The notes beneath the pieces were generated by a model. That model ran no database searches. It was given only the letters and a program-made list of their open reading frames with translations, and was not told the DNA's origin. A stretch of 64,000 bases of DNA from Atriophallophorus winterbourni (taxonomy: Eukaryota > Platyhelminthes > Trematoda > Plagiorchiida > Microphallidae), in contig JACCGJ010015249.1 in the NCBI GenBank assembly GCA_013407085.1, positions 1-64,000 of the forward strand. The letters are read 5' to 3'. A program made the translations under genes and the position numbers. Below are positions 15,161 through 44,964 of this stretch, in pieces. The stretch's first letter is position 1; each line of letters opens with the position of its first letter.

Positions 15161-16075
15161 CAAGTTTAGTAACTTTGTTTCTCAACGAACGGTAAGATTC
15201 CCAAGATTCAGGTGTTGAATGCAGTACGTGGATTCTCCACGCACAGTTTCTTACCTTTATCCATTTCCGTGTTCGACTCCGGATCACGAATTTGAATCCT
15301 TTTTTGAGTTGTTTTGAAACATATATTGAGTCGAGTTCTATTTTTCGGTTGATTTTCTGAAGTATCGATGACCAGCATTTTTGGACATCAGTGCTAATCG
15401 GTGCCCGGTCGGTGACTTTTCGAAGAGACATTGATAATGCAAGCGTATATATTTTTCTTATCAACTTCTGAGCATCACTTGCTCTTTTCGCTTCAGATAT
15501 ATAGTCGAAAACAATGACTACATGATCACTCTTTCCAGGAGTTGCTTCATAGCGGATATCCTCGTTGACATTTTCCTCGCTCGTCAGAACAAGATCGATA
15601 ATGGACGGTGTGTTTGTGCCTCTGAAGCGAGTGGTGCTTGAGATGTGGTTGAATAAAGGAAGTTCGTTGAACATTTTGTAGAATAGATGATCAAGAGAGT
15701 TCACCGGTGGAATCTCGCTTTTTAGTAAATTCGGGAGATTTAGGTCACCCATGATCAGGACGTTGTTTTGAAATCTGGAAACAATTAACTGAGTTTTCTC
15801 AATTAAACTAGCATTGTATGCTTCGTCTGCTGACGGTAGTCGGTAAATCACACCAACAACACAGTTTTCACCTGTTGCTAATTCAATTGAACACCTCCTC
15901 CTTCACGATTTATTCGATAACGATGAAAAAGAAACATGTTTGGAATAGAAATTTCCTCCTCAACTAATTGCTGATTGAACCAAGTTTCCGTTACGGCTAT
16001 CAAGAGTGGTGAATATTTTTGACGAAGCTCGATTACTTCGGGTAACTAATTTATCAAGCATTGTGCGTTGGTGTA
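15147..16075 (-). pseudogene. CR1-like ORF2: endonuclease domain
   Basis: The minus strand encodes IAVTETWFNQQ (16000) and then YRLPSADEAYN, LIMGDLNLPNLL, IIDLVLTSEENV and KSDHVVIVFDYI, the order of an apurinic-type endonuclease. The start (AQCLINKLPE, with a stop in place of K) overlaps the end of ORF1 in another frame. A stop near 15880 separates the first 60 residues from the rest. Confidence 0.85.
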
Positions 16076-17301
16076 TAAACATTTGGTGGTAGATCTTGAT
16101 AAAAGTGTTGGATGATGAGTATTTGAGCAGTAATTTGAGTACGTGTCAAAGATGGTGGGCCTCGTGTTAATGGGTATATTACATCACCGACTCCGATAGA
16201 GTCGGTCGACATCCGTTTTTTTGGAGCAGGAGTCCCGGCATCACTGTGCTCAGTACCAACGGGTCCGGCAACTTCCACGATAGAGCAGGTTTTCAGGTGT
16301 TTACTGACAATTTTGATCTCTCGTGGAACTTTGTATCGATACTGTTTCCAGTTGTTAAGCACGGTGTTCACCATAGTGGTGGTCAAAAGTGTCAGTTTAA
16401 GGGGTCGTGGACCATTACCTTCGTAATTCGATGACTTCGGGATTCGGAACGTATCGATAACCGTTACATTGGTGGTTTGGATAGCATTACTGATAAATCT
16501 CCACTGTTGTAGGTCGTGGTTGGATTTACACTTTGTGTCTGAACCGGTGGCATCTTCTGGGACATTTAAGAGAATAAGGGTGCGCTTGTTGAGATCGTTT
16601 GCTTCATTTTGTTTACCTTTCGGTGGCGATTTTGCCCGTTCCGACCAGGGCACATCAACAAATACACTAGATGTATTTTGCATGTCGTCTCGTAGCAAGT
16701 ATTTCGACAGAAATACATCTTCTAAATCCTTCTCATTTTGCACTACTACCTTGAGCAACCGCGGCTTATCTTGGTGTAGCGCTTTGGGAGGACGACTGAA
16801 GCAAATCAACGAAACCGGGTGGATCGCTTTGAGATTCATGCGAGTGCACAGTTTCAACCATTCAGCCAAATCATTCTGATGTCTATTCGAAAATAACGTC
16901 TCAGTCGACTCTGGCACGTTGGTGCAGATAACACTAAGAGAAATTCCTTTCGAGGCAACTTTCGCTAATGGGGCCTTCGATGTGAACGTTTTCGGCTTTA
17001 AGACGCTTTTAACAATTTGCTGGGTGCTGTGCTGCAACAATTCAACCTTTTCAATAGATTGGTTTGATGGTAAAGTTGAGTATGATGGATTATCTACCGG
17101 CTCTTCGGCAGTAACGACGGGTAACGACGGTGTCTTTATGACGTTTATTATCTGTTCATTTAGCTTTTGTATACTGGATTCCATTCCATTTAGACGCGTC
17201 TCAATATCATATTCAAGGGGTTTTCGTCGTCGAGACTGACGGTGTTGGTTTGGCCTTGCAAACCAGACAAACATAACAAACACCAGGGCAATTATCTCCA
17301 T
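16054..17301 (-). CDS. CR1-like ORF1 protein (415 residues)
   Basis: An intact frame upstream of the endonuclease. A possible coiled coil (LNGMESSIQKLNEQIINVI, residues about 37-55) is followed by two related segments. Segment A starts SVICTNVPESTETL and contains RPPKAL..PRLLKV. Segment B starts TLILLNVPEDATG and contains RIPKSS..PRPLKL. This suggests a duplicated RRM-like nucleic-acid-binding unit. The first 30 residues are hydrophobic and may be a wrong start: the next frame (17213-17458) carries a cysteine cluster, CPGVCYVCLVC, better suited to an ORF1 N-terminus. Last codons overlap ORF2. Confidence 0.75.
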   Translation of the reverse strand: MEIIALVFVMFVWFARPNQHRQSRRRKPLEYDIETRLNGMESSIQKLNEQIINVIKTPSLPVVTAEEPVDNPSYSTLPSNQSIEKVELLQHSTQQIVKSVLKPKTFTSKAPLAKVASKGISLSVICTNVPESTETLFSNRHQNDLAEWLKLCTRMNLKAIHPVSLICFSRPPKALHQDKPRLLKVVVQNEKDLEDVFLSKYLLRDDMQNTSSVFVDVPWSERAKSPPKGKQNEANDLNKRTLILLNVPEDATGSDTKCKSNHDLQQWRFISNAIQTTNVTVIDTFRIPKSSNYEGNGPRPLKLTLLTTTMVNTVLNNWKQYRYKVPREIKIVSKHLKTCSIVEVAGPVGTEHSDAGTPAPKKRMSTDSIGVGDVIYPLTRGPPSLTRTQITAQILIIQHFYQDLPPNVYTPTHNA

Positions 17302-17339
17302 TAATAATCGATACTAAATCCGAGGTCAGCGATTTGTCG

Positions 17340-37545: not shown

Positions 37546-37589
37546 AAGACCTACTCCTACACAGCACACAATATCACATTGAAATAGAC

Positions 37590-38760
37590 GCTTGTTTGGA
37601 ATTTAAGTTTTCTCCTCAGCTAATTGCTGATTGAACCAGGTTCCGTAACCCCTATCAGGAGTGGTGAATATTTTTCACGGTTCTCGATTAACTCGGGTAA
37701 TTTATTTGTCAAGCATTGTTAGTTGAGTTACAAACATTTAATGTTTGATCTGAATGAAAGTGTTGGGTGATGAGTATTTAAGCAGATAAATTATGTATAT
37801 ACCAAAGATTGCGGGGCTGGTGTTAATGTGTATAATAAATCGCAGACTCCGATAGAGTCGGTCGACATCCGTTTTTTAAATCAGAATACTCCTCATCGCT
37901 AAGCCCAGTATTAATATGTTCGGCAACTCTAACGATAGCGTCAGTTTACTGGTCTTTACATATATTTTTAATCTCTCGTTGTAGTTTGCATCGATACTTG
38001 TTCAGATTGTTAAGCACGGTGTCCGCCATGGTGGTAGTCAACAGTGGCAGTTTGAGGAGTCGTGTACCATTACGTTCTTTATTTGGTGAGTTCGGGATTT
38101 TGAAAGTATCGATAACCGCTGCATTGTTTGTTTGAAAAGCATTACTAATAAATCTTCACCGTTGTATGTCATGGTTGGATTTACACTACGTATCTGAACA
38201 AATGGAAGCTTTTGGGACATTCAAGAGAATACGGGTGCGTTATTGCGATCAGTTGTTTTGTTTTGGTTCCCTTTCGAAGTTCATTTCACCTGGTCTGACC
38301 AGGAAACATTAAGCAATACACGATATGTTGTAATTGCCGTCCCATAGCAAGTATGTCGACAGAAGTATATCTTCTAAATCTTTCTCATTTTGAACTACTA
38401 ACTTGAGCAACCACGGCTTATCTCGTTGTAGCCCGTTTGTGGTTCGACTCAAGCGAATCAACGAACCGAATGAATTGCTTTTTGATTCATCCGAGTGCAG
38501 AGTTTCAATCAGTCAGCCAAGTCGTGGTGGTGTCTATTGGAGAATGACGTCTCAGTCTACTCTGGCAGATAATAGTAAGCGAAATACCTTCCGACGCAAC
38601 TTTTGGTAATGGGGTATTTGTTGAAAATGGTTTTGGTTTCAAGGCGTTTAAACACTCTCCTGTTTGCTATGTTGCAACAATTCAACATTTTCAGGAGCAT
38701 GAATTGTTGGTGGTGAAGATAAACGTATTCATTTTTAAATTAAATTATTTTGGGCTTGAT
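37590..38760 (-). pseudogene. CR1-like ORF1 and endonuclease start, decayed
   Basis: It aligns by eye along its length with 15.95-17.0 kb: 'cagctaattgctgattgaac' (37618) and 'gactccgatagagtcggtcg' (37844) recur there. It contains most of ORF1 in several frames and only the first part of the endonuclease, so it is 3'-truncated. Confidence 0.8.
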
Positions 38761-39139: not shown

Positions 39140-39240
39140 TTCTACTGATTGGCTACAATCGTGATTCTCGATAATAGTTCACCAATCAGCAAATGCTGAG
39201 CAATAACATTCTTTCATTCGTTGTGCAATGTATAAATACC
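39140..39240 (+). promoter_or_regulatory. TATA/CCAAT promoter of the micro-exon gene
   Basis: Two opposed CCAAT boxes ('gattggct' at 39147 and 'accaatcag' at 39181) precede a TATA box, 'tataaatac' at 39231. A CTT microsatellite (39244-39262) and a leader of about 50-60 bases lead to the ATG at 39302. Spacing fits a standard RNA polymerase II promoter. Confidence 0.6.
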
Positions 39241-39301
39241 CTGTTTCTTCTTCTTCTTCTTCTGGATAGACCTGAGAGAGTTAAGCTTTTTTTCGTCGAA
39301 A

Positions 39302-42300
39302 ATGAGAAGTACTACATTTCTTCTACTTTTAACCATCTCGCTTCGCGGTTGCAGTATGACAGGTTAGTTTCTATTGAATCATAATATGAGATTCAAACAT
39401 GATCATCATCGTATTTTCAAATATTTGTGGATTTTAACTTCGAATTGGATTGTGATAAAAATAAAACACTTGTTTCTGCGAAACGAATAGATTTATTATG
39501 CTTACTGGGCGAAAAACGATCAATGTTGAATAATTTCCCACATATTGAACAGGCATTATTAAATTTCAGATGAACTATAACGCTTTTTCATTTACTTGTG
39601 TAATTGTGCGCTAAAATGTCTGAATGAATTAAACATTCTAACTTTTAATGGTTCGCGGTAAAGCAATCCCGTTCAACGCTGGCATATGGAGAGCGCGATT
39701 CTAATATTTAGAGGTTTAAATATATTTTGTAACACAAAAGTTGTTTACATTTGGAAGATAATTAAACATACAGAATAAGCGCCTGGAGCGCTTGACCAGA
39801 AATCACTTTGTGATTATATATTTGAACATCGTGATTCTTTGTAAAAAGGTTATATAACAGTGGCATACAATATACCTTTGTATACCAACTATCCACAGTT
39901 TTTACCTAATCTTAATATCTCCACCGGAAGACGATAACCAGCAAGATCGGCAGGTCAGCACTGTACTTCATTCAGGATTGTTATTATTTCATTAGGTGAT
40001 GCTTTAAATAATCACCACCGTTGTGTAACATTTCACAAAACTAGTTCCTAAACGAATTTATTTTAGTAAGACGAAGTGTACATGATGATGGTAAATGTTA
40101 TAGCGAAACTAATTCACAAATTCATCTGATCTCAAAACAGCAACTTCCTTTTGCTTTTAATATAGACGGAAATGAGAACCGTCATATGCTATAGATTTAT
40201 ACGCATTGAATTATTACTCACTGTTGGCAATTTTATTCACTTATATTTTTTATTTATATATTTATCCAGAATTCAAAATCGGTAAGCGTGTTCAACATCA
40301 TTATCGTTCAAATCACACATTGTGAAGAATACTTATTTGTATCTAAATAAGTACATTCGCGTATACAAAGCATACTCACAAAAACCGAGTTAGGTTCTGA
40401 TTAATCAATGTAATTAAAATCATTTTTTAACAAGATTAGCAACAATCACTTTCAAATGTCAGTGTTGATCTGGACGCTCAGTAAAACGGTCATTTGAGAA
40501 CGCTATCAATTTCGCTGGAATAGTTCAATCTAGATTCGAAGTATATAATTATAATTCAGTAGAATGGATGTCAGGATAGAGATTATTGTGACATCTGCAA
40601 ATGAGTTTGGTCAAAGCAGATGCGTGATCTATTAAAAGTTTTATTTTTCTCTACTTGTGAATTAAACCGTTACAGAAAGAGCAAGAAATGTAGTGAAACA
40701 CTCTAATATCTAGTGACGATGGGCATCATGTTAGAAAGATTATTCATTAATAACGTGTTTTTATAATAATCAGAACTTGGCAAACAAGCACGTTTTATCT
40801 TGTATATACCAGAAAGTAATCTTTAATGCAATTAAGCGGAATACGATCGGTTAGTAGTTTTGTAAATTTTGGCAGCGCCTCCCAATGCACCGTTAGTGAC
40901 CTCAGGTCAACAAACATGAGGTAGCCGAAGTGTGCAGGATATATTGCAATTATTGATTTAATCTTTTCTCATATGTTTGCAACCATTTCCCTAATGCGGT
41001 TTAACTTTTAACAGAGTAGCTCAGAATCACTCCTTTGGATTCATTCAGAGCTAAAATGTATAACGATTTAACGCAAATGAAAATGGAAATCCATTAAAAT
41101 CTCAGGAGATAATCATCCAATGAGTGATTTGTTTTCCTTATTGACACAGTACAAATGCGGATGTTTTCGAATGGAGACGAAAAATAATTTTATTTCATTT
41201 ACACTCAGAATAACATCGGTTAACACATTTATAGTTGTATTGTATGCTAAGATTTTAAATAGAATTTTCGTATATTTAAGATTTGTGATGTTTTATTTTA
41301 GCGATGAAGCCTGTAAATAATATATTCCAATTGATTAGCTAAGATTTATTTTTGACCGCTGTTGTTATGTTCACAATCTCCTACAAAACAAATCTGAAAT
41401 CGCTTTCTTTGGTTGCACTAAGCATGTGAAGTCAGTAAAATTAGCTTCGATGAGAGTTGCAACCACGGAAGTGTGGTAAACTAATCTGTACTTTAAATAC
41501 GCTGTCATTAACCTCCCAGATGAAAACCATGCAATTTAATTTCATCGTTTCAACTGTTTCATGTGTTTAAAAATCATATCATTATGAAGAAAACTTTACC
41601 ATATACACATTATTAACATTACATATACATAAAAATCATGTCGGTATCTTCAGGAAAATATTTCTCTTTAATATTCAATTAACAAAATTTACAAAGAAAA
41701 CTTTTTTTAATGTTTTGAAGAACAAGTCGAAGGTAATTGTAATTGATTAAGGTGTTGCACCTCTTAATGTTTCGTGAGCAAAATAATTTAAAAAGAATTA
41801 TTTCCATTTTATTTATTAGCTATTATTGCGGTTTTTGTGAGTAAGTTTAAGTAAAATTTGCTTAATTCATCAAAATGGGGCATATATATGAAATGAATTA
41901 TTGTGATTAATATTGGTTGTATTGAACGTAATGTGAACATCGTTTCCATTTTTCGAGAGATGCAAAGCCGTGAGTTGCCGTAAATGTAATCTGACTAACA
42001 TTTCTAGAGTTATTTGCATGAAAATTTAGAAAATACAAAGAGAAATCAATTTAGTTTTGAGAGCAGTGGTTTGGTCATAAATTCGGAAATTAAATTTATT
42101 TATTTAACCATTGAAATGATTGTTTGATGGAAAAACTGATGGATGCGATGTAGATCTTTAGTTTATGTAGCTGAAGGATGTGTTTGTGATGTTCCCATTC
42201 AGAGGCACACCATCGCGAATGATTTTTCGAGTATATTCGAGAAACCATATTCATGTGAGAAAGGCTGATAAACAGGTATCGGCATGAGTATATTCAACCT

Positions 42301-43526
42301 GTACAACCGCGATGGTGTTTGTATTGTATTCATTCGATTCGATATTGGTTACATTATACATTAATAATATGAACTTAATAAGGCTACACGACATCAGAAC
42401 AAGAAATTCTCGGCTATTGTGAACACAACCTCTACAGCGAATGTTAACACTATCATATATATAAAAAACGTTTGTTGTCTGTTTTCAAATAATAAATCAT
42501 GAGATGCATAATTGTCCTCGTTTTTATTTTCTATATACATTTCTGATCTTCCTTGTAATCTTTGTAAACTTACTGTGAAATATAACGGCGACGCTGCCGC
42601 CGCATTAATTCACAATAGTCGAGTCTCCGTAGATTTAATTCGAAACATTAATGTCGATCGCCACATAGGAAAAGGCAAGACATTGATCAAAACCTTTCTT
42701 CGAAAGTTCACATCAACCGAACAAAACCATTATTGGTTTATTAATTGATGGTAAGTTTACAGTTAAAGATGCGCCTGACTATTTGATAAACGAAATAAAA
42801 AGATCTAAGTAAAGTGTTGCTCACATCCCCATCCCTTACACTCCACTTCCGGTTTGTGGCTGTTTGTCGTCGTCAAGTGGAGACAGTAAGATCAGGTTCA
42901 GTGAGCCTTGAAACAGTGGTAAAGTGATAAAAATAAAGTTATACTTGTATGCCACTGTTATATAGGGTTCGTACAACGAACCACGATGTTCAGACACGGA
43001 ATCACAAAGTGATTCTTGCTCAAGCACACAAGGCGCTTATGGATGACAAAAGTAAAGTAATGCTCACATATTAGGATCTTCTCGTCAATTTTCTAAACTC
43101 ATTTTCTAACTTCATTCGCATGTCTGTGTTCTAGGCCTCAAGCACACAAGGCGCTTATGGATGACAAAAGTAAAGTAATGCTCACATATTAGGATCTTCT
43201 CGTCAATTTTCTAAACTCATTTTCTAACTTCATTCGCATGTCTGTCTAGGCCTGGGTAACCTGACAGTAATTTGGCCCACGTACATTACTTAGAATGCGA
43301 AAATTTGCTTGGTTCACGCTTGTGTGATTTTATATATTTCAATTTTTCTTAGTTTTGTGAAGAAAATTATTTAATCACTACAAATTCTCGTACGCGACTA
43401 AAGTCATTTTCCTTTTTTCTGCTTCACTGATCCGCATGAAATATTTTAGAACTGTCGTTTGTGGCGTCTAACGGTAAGTTGATGTGCACGAGCGAATCTA
43501 TTTAAAAAACAAATTGTTATAATTAA

Positions 43527-43562
<36 letters not shown>

Positions 43563-44375
43563 ATTCTCCTCCGGTCTGTCGACTATCAGTTTCTTTTTAA
43601 TTTAGGTTACGTATTTGATCAAACAGTCGAGGCTGCATGTAAGCTTTGTTTGAATAAGTATTCATTGTATAAAATATTAGAATACGTAAAACGTGGAGAG
43701 CGTTATTGGTGTACAGGAATTCTTTATCAATATAATACGTTCTATAAAAATGAAAATAAATTAAAATGCGTGAAATAACACTAACCTGATCCAGAAAAAT
43801 TGCCGCGCAGTAAATACTGTACTTGGGCAGAGATGTTTTCAGTCCACGAAAGACGTGTGAATGAATTGAGAAATAAAAATAGCCAAGCAAGAAGCGCGCT
43901 TATCATCAGTTATCAAATGGCAAGGAATATTTTTAAAACTCAACCAATCATCGATTGGCTATTCATACATCAAGCCAAGTAAGGTACAACGGAGTTTCTG
44001 AAATTATTTGTCCACAAATAAAATTAAAAATAATTGGCTTCGCGTGAAAGAAAACCATCTGTGTGCAATAAGGCTCTTGTGCAGTGGGTCTGCACCATCA
44101 CAAAAACTAAATGTGATTAGTCTGTTGCATTCACGGAAGTAAAGATCACGATTCATTCATGTTTGTTATGAATGATTTAAAACAATCTTGATCGACTCAG
44201 CAATTGTTGTCCACTAAGGTTGCAACGTCGTCGTCGCATTTAATGGTAGGTTAAGTGCTACAAAGAAAATCAGAAATCTAAATTGAAAATAAAAATGGAA
44301 GGCTATCGAATTTATTGTATTTTTCTTTCAGTAAAGAACATTATGGAACAAGGTGATGGTTTACTTGATGCGTAA
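39302..44375 (+). CDS. Micro-exon gene (MEG)-like secreted peptide, gene model
   Basis: Exon 1, 39302-39362, encodes a signal peptide (MRSTTFLLLLTISLRGCSMT) and ends in phase 1 at GTTAGT. Candidate micro-exons, all phase 1 to 1 and open: 40067-40090 (24), 40270-40281 (12), 41721-41732 (12), 41820-41840 (21), 41958-41969 (12), 43450-43473 (24), 43606-43638 (33), 44219-44245 (27). The terminal exon is 44332-44375. The joined length is 270 nt, 89 residues plus stop. Pieces include RRSVHDD, LSFVASN, YVFDQTVEAA, NVVVAFN and KNIMEQGDGLLDA. This is the layout known for schistosome MEGs, which encode small secreted peptides of intra-mammalian stages. The five exons between 40270 and 41969 are the weakest, because 12-nt matches occur by chance. 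Confidence 0.55.
39780..39965 (+). mobile_element. Hammerhead-type SINE copy with tRNA-like 5' part
   Basis: The 5' part 'gcgcctggagcgcttgacca' and 'gaaatcactttgtgattata' matches the complement of 42.95-43.04 kb, which there has an anticodon-like hairpin and a B-box-like GGTTCG..CGAACC. It is followed by 'ataacagtggcatacaatat' and a decayed hammerhead core at 39924. It lies in the first intron of the MEG-like gene. Confidence 0.65.
42500..42720 (+). pseudogene. Decayed CR1-like RT scrap
   Basis: It encodes FSIYISDLPCNLCKLTVKYN and DAAAALIHNSR, a faint copy of the RT block with catalytic DD (FADD to NGDAAA). No flanking motif remains. Confidence 0.5.
42835..43035 (-). mobile_element. Hammerhead-type SINE, most complete structure
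   Basis: On the minus strand: a tRNA-like 5' part with GAATCAC-TTT-GTGATTC hairpin and a GGTTCG..CGAACC arm resembling a pol III B box, then 'aacagtggcatacaag', then CTGTCTCCAC and a decayed core. Stem I is perfect over eight pairs (CTCCACTT/AAGTGGAG) although the core is mutated. Confidence 0.7.
43019..43250. repeat. 118-bp recent tandem duplication
   Basis: 43019-43136 and 43137 onward are identical except for a 3-base loss near the end of the second copy. It has no coding content and lies between micro-exons. Confidence 0.95.
43450..43473 (+). CDS. 24-nt micro-exon, LSFVASN
   Basis: The acceptor is 'gaaatattttag' and the donor GTAAGT. Phase 1 to 1. The 3' half of the exon and its donor flank resemble those of exon 44219-44245, which suggests exon duplication. 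Confidence 0.55.
43529..43558. repeat. (TA)n microsatellite
   Basis: About 15 TA units in an intron of the MEG-like gene. Confidence 0.95.
43606..43638 (+). CDS. 33-nt micro-exon, YVFDQTVEAA
   Basis: A strong acceptor ('agtttctttttaatttag'), donor GTAAGC, phase 1 to 1, no stop. With the 24- and 27-nt neighbours it is the best supported micro-exon. Confidence 0.6.
44219..44245 (+). CDS. 27-nt micro-exon, NVVVAFN
   Basis: The acceptor is 'gttgtccactaag' and the donor GTAGGT. Phase 1 to 1. The last bases and intron start ('gcatttaatggtaggttaag') parallel 'gcgtctaacggtaagttgat' at 43464. Confidence 0.55.
44332..44375 (+). CDS. Terminal exon of the MEG-like gene
   Basis: The acceptor is 'tgtatttttctttcag'. 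It encodes V-KNIMEQGDGLLDA then TAA at 44373-44375. A 21-nt internal use (donor GTGATG) is possible. AATAAA motifs follow at about 44664 and 44680. Confidence 0.5.
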
Positions 44376-44964
44376 ATTATTAAAAAAACAAATATTGAAG
44401 CTTTTTGGTATGGGTAATGTAAATTGGTTCAGTTCATTTGAATTTATAGTTTTATTAATATACTGTATTATCGATATATACTTGTACATTTTGAAGCTAA
44501 GTGCCTTTTATCTTGTTCAAAAATAATCAGTTAATGAACAGTTATTTTGAACATTAGTCTTCCCAGAAATTAATGAGAAATTCCCGTTGAAATAGAAGTT
44601 GTTCTTTTTCGTCCGCATCATTGACAAACGTATGAAGCATCACCATTCGAGATGCTGCATATAATAAATGACATCAATCAATAAATAGAATGTTGCTGAC
44701 ATCCTACGTACGAGGTCGTCAATGGGTGTACATTACAAACGTATGGTGGTTTATGCTTCTGATTGATTCAGATTATCAAACAGTTTGATTTAATAGAAAC
44801 GTTTTCACCCAAAGCGCATCCGGCGATAGATATAATTCGGCTATGTAACTACCGCTGTTGGCTTGACTTACAATCAACAGGCAAAAGCGATATCTGCCCT
44901 TTCCCAGCTCTAGGAGACGACGCTTCACATAGGGCATCCAAAGTGTAGAATGAAGTGAAATAAA

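Follow-up and report, generated by a model that had tools for sequence, protein, structure and literature searches.

A candidate micro-exon-gene-like family encoding small, predicted secreted peptides in a plagiorchiid-type fluke

A locus of very short exons in a fluke genome

Micro-exon genes (MEGs) are well described in schistosomes and have been reported in some tapeworms. Here we analyze a MEG-like locus of about 5 kb in a 64,000-nucleotide (nt) stretch of DNA from Atriophallophorus winterbourni (positions 1 to 64,000 of contig JACCGJ010015249.1; hereafter the window), for which an initial annotation, made from the letters alone, had proposed a promoter, a signal-peptide exon, a run of micro-exons and a terminal exon closing an 89-residue frame. 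Six exons at this locus (the coding part of exon 1, micro-exons of 12, 21, 24 and 33 nt, and a terminal coding exon; Table 1) are conserved among the copies of the locus, as are their splice sites, and read as one open frame. Judging from genomic sequence, we read the locus, with a probability of about 0.7, as one of a small MEG-like family of secreted-peptide genes, with at least seven copies and a six-exon structure, in a plagiorchiid-type digenean fluke.

Much of the proposed layout can be read directly in the window. The CCAAT-type and TATA motifs are present, exon 1 ends in phase 1, AG/GT-flanked segments of 24, 12, 24, 33 and 27 nt exist as described, and a terminal exon with a stop follows. 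Such segments are common: between exon 1 and the terminal exon there are 134 stretches of 6-48 nt that are open in phase 1, divisible by three in length, and bounded by AG and GT. A single sequence therefore cannot separate real from chance exons, and we compared paralogues instead. A scan of both strands for strong splice sites, with matrices of generic values rather than trained ones, placed 4 of its 23 plus-strand pairs in the 5-kb interval, barely above the interval's share; three of these four are at kept exons, with two using one acceptor.

Table 1. Features of the MEG-like locus, numbered from the first letter of the window
Feature	Position	Strand	Description
Two CCAAT-type boxes	ATTGG 39148-39152; CCAAT 39182-39186	+	read in the sequence
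TATA box, TATAAA	39231..39236	+	some 70 nt before the ATG
Exon 1, coding part, signal-peptide-like MRSTTFLLLLTISLRGCSMT	39302..39362	+	61 coding nt from the ATG; ends in phase 1; donor GTTAGT
24-nt exon of the initial annotation, unsupported	40067..40090	+	acceptor lost in most copies
12-nt micro-exon, phase 1-1, weakest of those kept	40270..40281	+	acceptor and donor both strong in the window copy
Candidate further 12-nt micro-exon, unproven	41721..41732	+	conserved AG/GT
21-nt micro-exon, phase 1-1	41820..41840	+	paralogue comparison
Candidate further 12-nt micro-exon, unproven	41958..41969	+	conserved AG/GT
24-nt micro-exon, phase 1-1	43450..43473	+	paralogue comparison
33-nt micro-exon, phase 1-1, GYVFDQTVEAA	43606..43638	+	paralogue comparison
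27-nt exon of the initial annotation, unsupported	44219..44245	+	acceptor score -0.07 (weak)
Terminal coding exon KNIMEQGDGLLDA	44332..44375	+	stop TAA 44373-44375
ATTAAA, possible polyadenylation signal	44379..44384	+	just 3' of the stop; weak evidence in AT-rich DNA

Paralogous copies and exon conservation

We searched the genome (537 Mb in 15,840 contigs, with the window on contig C9543) for relatives of the locus. The promoter and exon 1 region gave at least seven long matches, itself included, on seven contigs, and three more of only 40-45 nt; the search scored the best candidates only, so seven copies is a lower bound. A second probe (43430-43700) matched six of these contigs; C11919, the remaining one, ends before that region. 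Contig ends cut off L009 and L013, so that five copies are full-length. With introns included, the window copy is 96% identical to the partial copy L009 and mostly 72-80% identical to the others, and L010 and L011 are 94-96% alike. Copy L013 (C11132:6896-11165) is 94% like L014 to about its middle and then tracks L010, matching it at an identity of 1.00 over the final six blocks (42020 onward); it is either a recombinant copy or an assembly chimera. A mobile unit with a common left edge was considered and rejected: alignment breaks near 39.0 kb in the window copy and at 39.07 kb in its partial sister L009, the remaining copies have common sequence further upstream, and the 39.0-kb break is a property of the window copy.

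For the conservation tests, the intron baseline and the counts of variable columns used the window copy, L010, L012 and L014; the random-set and splice-dinucleotide counts used the window copy, L011, L012 and L014; and the splice-score ranking used all five of these copies. MAFFT misplaces the terminal exon of L010 (TG there); that exon was taken from a separate L010 comparison, and L011 represents the lineage in the random-set and dinucleotide tests.

Introns vary at 1,436 of 3,454 ungapped columns across four lineages (41.6%). The six exons jointly vary at 39 of 193 columns and contain no gap columns, against averages of 67.4 and 22.6 in random intron sets; among 5,000 such sets matched for length, a fraction of 0.0002 had as few variable columns, 0.0018 were gapless, and none combined the two. 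This result bears on the simplest alternative, that no gene exists here and splice-like motifs have merely lined up by chance in AT-rich DNA. The 134 open segments are what such an account would lead one to expect, and two of the initially named exons do behave like chance segments (see below), but with none of the 5,000 sets equalling the six exons in conservation and absence of gaps, we regard it as very unlikely. The four kept exons whose ends the initial annotation had named (exon 1, the 24- and 33-nt exons, and the terminal exon) vary at 30 of 163 columns.

Splice dinucleotides point the same way. For all six exons, 1 of 20 columns varies among the four lineages (P=0.0003 at the intron rate), and for the four exons named initially (ends at 39362; 43473; 43606/43638; 44332) 0 of 12 do (P=0.0016), both P values treating columns as independent. 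When the 836 aligned AG-GT pairs are ranked, again with generic matrices, by their worst splice score over the five copies, the 21-, 24- and 33-nt exons come 1st, 4th and 7th.

Taken singly, the exons differ in how firmly they stand out. The signal-peptide exon proposed initially holds: in each of the seven copies exon 1 has an open frame and a GT donor, and it varies at 15 of 61 columns, compared with 23 of 135 for the other five exons. AG and GT flank both the 21-nt exon (4/21 columns variable) and the 24-nt exon (5/24) in all six informative copies; the 33-nt exon (4/33) has its AG in six of six and its GT in five of five; and in every full-length copy (five of five) the terminal exon (6/45) has its acceptor, its frame and its stop. 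Of 3,000 random intron segments, not one equalled the 33-nt or the terminal exon in conservation, and the corresponding fraction for exon 1 and the 21- and 24-nt exons was 0.02-0.05. The 12-nt exon at 40270 is the weak member of the set: its acceptor AG is present in five of seven copies and reads AT in L013 and L014, it varies at 4 of 12 columns (random fraction 0.44, indistinguishable from intron), and it falls outside the top 20 of the 836 pairs. Two further 12-nt candidates have AG and GT in all six informative copies; that at 41721-41732 varies at 3 of 12 columns (random fraction 0.25, not better than intron) and that at 41958-41969 at 2 of 12 (0.11), so that neither clearly exceeds the introns in conservation.

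Two exons of the initial annotation did not survive this comparison. The acceptor of the proposed exon at 40067-40090 is lost in five of the six other copies (L010-L014); the exception is the 96%-identical L009, in which the corresponding segment measures 38 nt and includes a stop. The proposed exon at 44219-44245 lies in a stretch that L010 and L011 lack; its donor is GC in L014, and across three copies 8 changes fall in its 27 sites. The suggestion that two of the exons are duplicates also fell away: 92 of 300 exon-only shuffles reach the score of the 24- versus 27-nt pair, and with 60-nt flanks 4 of 300 do, for a pair that was the best of 15 tried. The MEG-like layout itself thus holds for the six exons through paralogue comparison, and not for two of the exons named or for the duplication. 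As for the 89-residue frame, that length is reached arithmetically if the segments at 41721-41732, 41820-41840 (21 nt) and 41958-41969 are added to an earlier 74-residue chain, which is probably how it arose.

The promoter region is largely shared as well. The downstream CCAAT is kept in all seven copies, the upstream ATTGG in five (ATTGA in L013 and L014), and TATAAA likewise in five (the window copy and L009-L012), being replaced in L013 and L014. L013 and L014, having neither the TATA box nor an acceptor for the 12-nt exon, may be regulated differently and yield other isoforms. At the other end of the gene, the ATTAAA of the window copy is AATAAA in the other four full-length copies.

The predicted product and its coding signal

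Joined, the six exons are open in all five full-length copies. Since every internal exon is divisible by three and in phase 1-1, skipping any of them preserves the frame and the common C-terminus, and none of the 16 combinations of skipped micro-exons creates an internal stop in any of these copies. The resulting 64-residue models, 69-80% identical to the window model, all start with M(R/S)S.TF.LLLT, which on inspection is signal-peptide-like; by the same kind of judgement, a hydrophobic N-terminus is present in all seven copies. Beyond it the models have a hydrophobic middle, the block SNGYVFDQ, which is invariant, and at the C-terminus an amphipathic helix, whose best moment, calculated for four models, is 0.45-0.52 and falls within residues 45-64. 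Read after a G, the 21-nt exon gives AIIAVFV in the window copy; elsewhere it gives AIIGLFV or AIIGLFM. The assumed mature part carries a net charge of -2 to -5.

Database searches returned little. No Pfam family scored above its cut-off for two of the 64-residue models (best E 0.007, DUF2715, at 16.6 bits against a cut-off of 22), a sequence search of the PDB with the earlier 74-residue chain gave nothing significant (best E 0.7), and scans of the window with Rfam at the gathering threshold and for tRNAs found nothing. A putative schistosome spliced-leader pattern had no match at up to 3 mismatches.

Several observations weigh against reading the locus as a MEG-like coding gene. Over the five full-length copies, and counting the 12-nt exon in L014 despite its lost acceptor, the ratio of nonsynonymous to synonymous rates (dN/dS) of the joined exons is 0.56-2.23 in the nine pairs with synonymous change (the tenth, L010-L011, has none). 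Reading in the +1 frame leaves the ratio much the same (0.71-1.11), and mostly higher ratios appear in the +2 frame alone; counted as minimum changes, codon positions 1, 2 and 3 have 18, 10 and 19. From the dN/dS and frame comparisons it follows that conservation is not demonstrated at the protein level and that coding is not proven. The absence of new stops is weak evidence, expected by chance with a probability of about 0.25. No relative of the 64-residue model or of the five-copy profile was found at E <= 1 in a word-based search of about 5.8 billion proteins including UniRef/nr, with their Schistosoma entries; the method detects only proteins sharing 5-residue words, and peptides of this kind change quickly. 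The 64 residues modelled for L014 are nominal, since this copy, having no acceptor for the 12-nt exon, would make a different product. The joint conservation test is partly post hoc, the unsupported exons having been removed before it was run. Finally, the segments ranked 2 and 3 of 836 by splice score, at 40876-40895 (20 nt) and 41302-41312 (11 nt), are conserved AG-GT segments with lengths not divisible by three, so a good splice score alone cannot identify exons.

Part of this evidence would suit a spliced non-coding RNA, or a set of conserved regulatory elements, whose blocks happen to be open in one frame. A dN/dS near 1, the lack of a clear codon-position signal and the conservation of the promoter region would all be at home there. 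Against it, the exons have no gap columns where random intron sets average 22.6, and all five full-length copies keep the ATG, the signal-peptide-like N-terminus, the joined frame and the stop. We hold a non-coding origin of the pattern to be improbable. Somewhat less probable still is a decayed family, once MEG-like, in which several copies, perhaps that of the window too, are no longer expressed. The losses of the TATA box and the 12-nt-exon acceptor in L013 and L014 are of the kind that decay would bring, and the window copy has a retrotransposon-like fragment immediately 5' of it; frame, stop and the remaining splice dinucleotides are, however, intact in all five copies of full length.

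If the locus is a MEG-like gene, as we favor, its CCAAT/TATA-type promoter would drive a transcript of about 5 kb. Splicing would then join the phase-1 signal-peptide exon to the symmetrical 12-, 21-, 24- and 33-nt micro-exons and the short terminal exon, giving a predicted precursor of 64 residues, or of 60 without the 12-nt exon. With cleavage assumed near residue 18, the secreted peptide would have about 46 residues. Micro-exon skipping could in principle yield up to 16 in-frame isoforms, and the products may act in secretions or at the parasite surface.

Host lineage and relation to known micro-exon genes

The initial annotation took its layout from schistosome MEGs and spoke of parasite stages; the host itself is not a schistosome. 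Among the matches listed, the COX1 of this genome (L026, read with the flatworm code) is 80% identical to that of Prosthogonimus cuneatus, 72% to the next flukes and 67-70% to schistosomatids. The host thus belongs to another fluke lineage, of plagiorchiid type, and a schistosome origin is rejected on COX1, Prosthogonimus being nearest. We read the genes beside COX1 in L026 as nad1 and nad3. Beyond contig C6618, further COX1-like matches lie on contigs C4859, C4746, C8922, C10138, C11485, C15234 and C4773; most contain TAA or TAG stops, and they are possibly nuclear mitochondrial copies or foreign sequence.

How closely the gene resembles known MEGs can be judged against published descriptions. 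One rule (PMC7653826) defines micro-exons as shorter than 70 nt and divisible by three, and calls for at least seven exons, half or more of them micro, with four in a row. Our model has four micro-exons in a row (12, 21, 24 and 33 nt) among its six exons, a run that shrinks to three without the weak 12-nt exon; it has six supported exons against the seven or more of the rule, and the candidates at 41721 and 41958 would bring the number to eight. Like the MEGs of Schistosoma mansoni, it has a signal-peptide-like start and a run of very short exons, mostly divisible by three in the schistosome genes, which share with it introns of 0.1-5 kb, paralogous families and transposable elements nearby (PMC10526429, PMC4350168). 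Unlike them, it has six supported exons where 10-20 are described, and it sits in a host that is not a schistosome, with no relative found by sequence. The S. mansoni motif FL-phi-phi-F-X6-W-p-(K/H/R), located soon after the signal peptide (PMC10526429), is absent, none of the five model proteins containing a tryptophan. With neither sequence similarity nor this motif, descent from schistosome MEGs is unsupported. Schistosome MEGs also evolve faster in the mature part than in the signal peptide when orthologues are compared between species (PMC4350168); here just 2 of 10 pairs show the higher nonsynonymous rate in the mature part, and these are pairs of paralogues and so not the published comparison.

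Tapeworms (Hymenolepis microstoma, Echinococcus multilocularis) already provide MEGs outside schistosomes. Ten MEGs of H. microstoma have an N-terminal motif in common and multiplied by duplication (PMC7653826); that family is in tandem in one region, whereas the copies described here lie on separate contigs and differ in sequence. The esophageal peptides of the MEG-12/MEG-26 type are short, secreted and amphipathic (PMC5825161), as our product is predicted to be, but its assumed mature part is negatively charged. The same paper ties MEG-4, MEG-8 and MEG-9 to blood feeding and reports that their relatives were not found in cestodes or in transcript databases of further fluke families, Fasciolidae and Opisthorchiidae among them. 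A term search of the accessible text of an Opisthorchis felineus paper (PMC6530080) met no mention of micro-exons, and among the literature matches listed, whose coverage excludes most subscription journals, no report concerned MEGs in a plagiorchiid or microphallid fluke.

Mobile sequence around the gene is one of these points of likeness. Transposable elements have been reported close to schistosome MEGs (PMC4350168, PMC10526429), and on that ground we count the retrotransposon-like fragment directly upstream in favor of a MEG-like gene. This fragment (37580-38711), which adjoins the gene, is 77% identical to 15924-17071 and bears, on the minus strand, a relative of a 419-codon open frame at 16057-17313 that we read as a retrotransposon protein. 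Within the introns are a 118-bp tandem duplication at 43019-43245 and a pair of inverted repeats (39775-39879 and 42935-43040, 81% identical), all perhaps short mobile elements.

Overall, the gene is built, and probably works, like a MEG, and a MEG-like family in a non-schistosome fluke is probably a modest but real finding. Even without RNA, setting the paralogues of a single genome side by side can lend support to micro-exons and weed out false ones, and a family of this kind outside the schistosomes would serve as a comparison point for the origin of such genes. More tentatively, MEGs may have an early origin, or more than one origin, within the digenean flukes, with this plagiorchiid-type fluke carrying a dispersed and unrelated-looking family of its own, of about seven copies and up to 16 secreted isoforms per gene. 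Were such a MEG-like family conserved in another fluke lineage, the architecture would be decoupled from blood feeding; flukes in general would then use MEG architecture to vary their secreted peptides.

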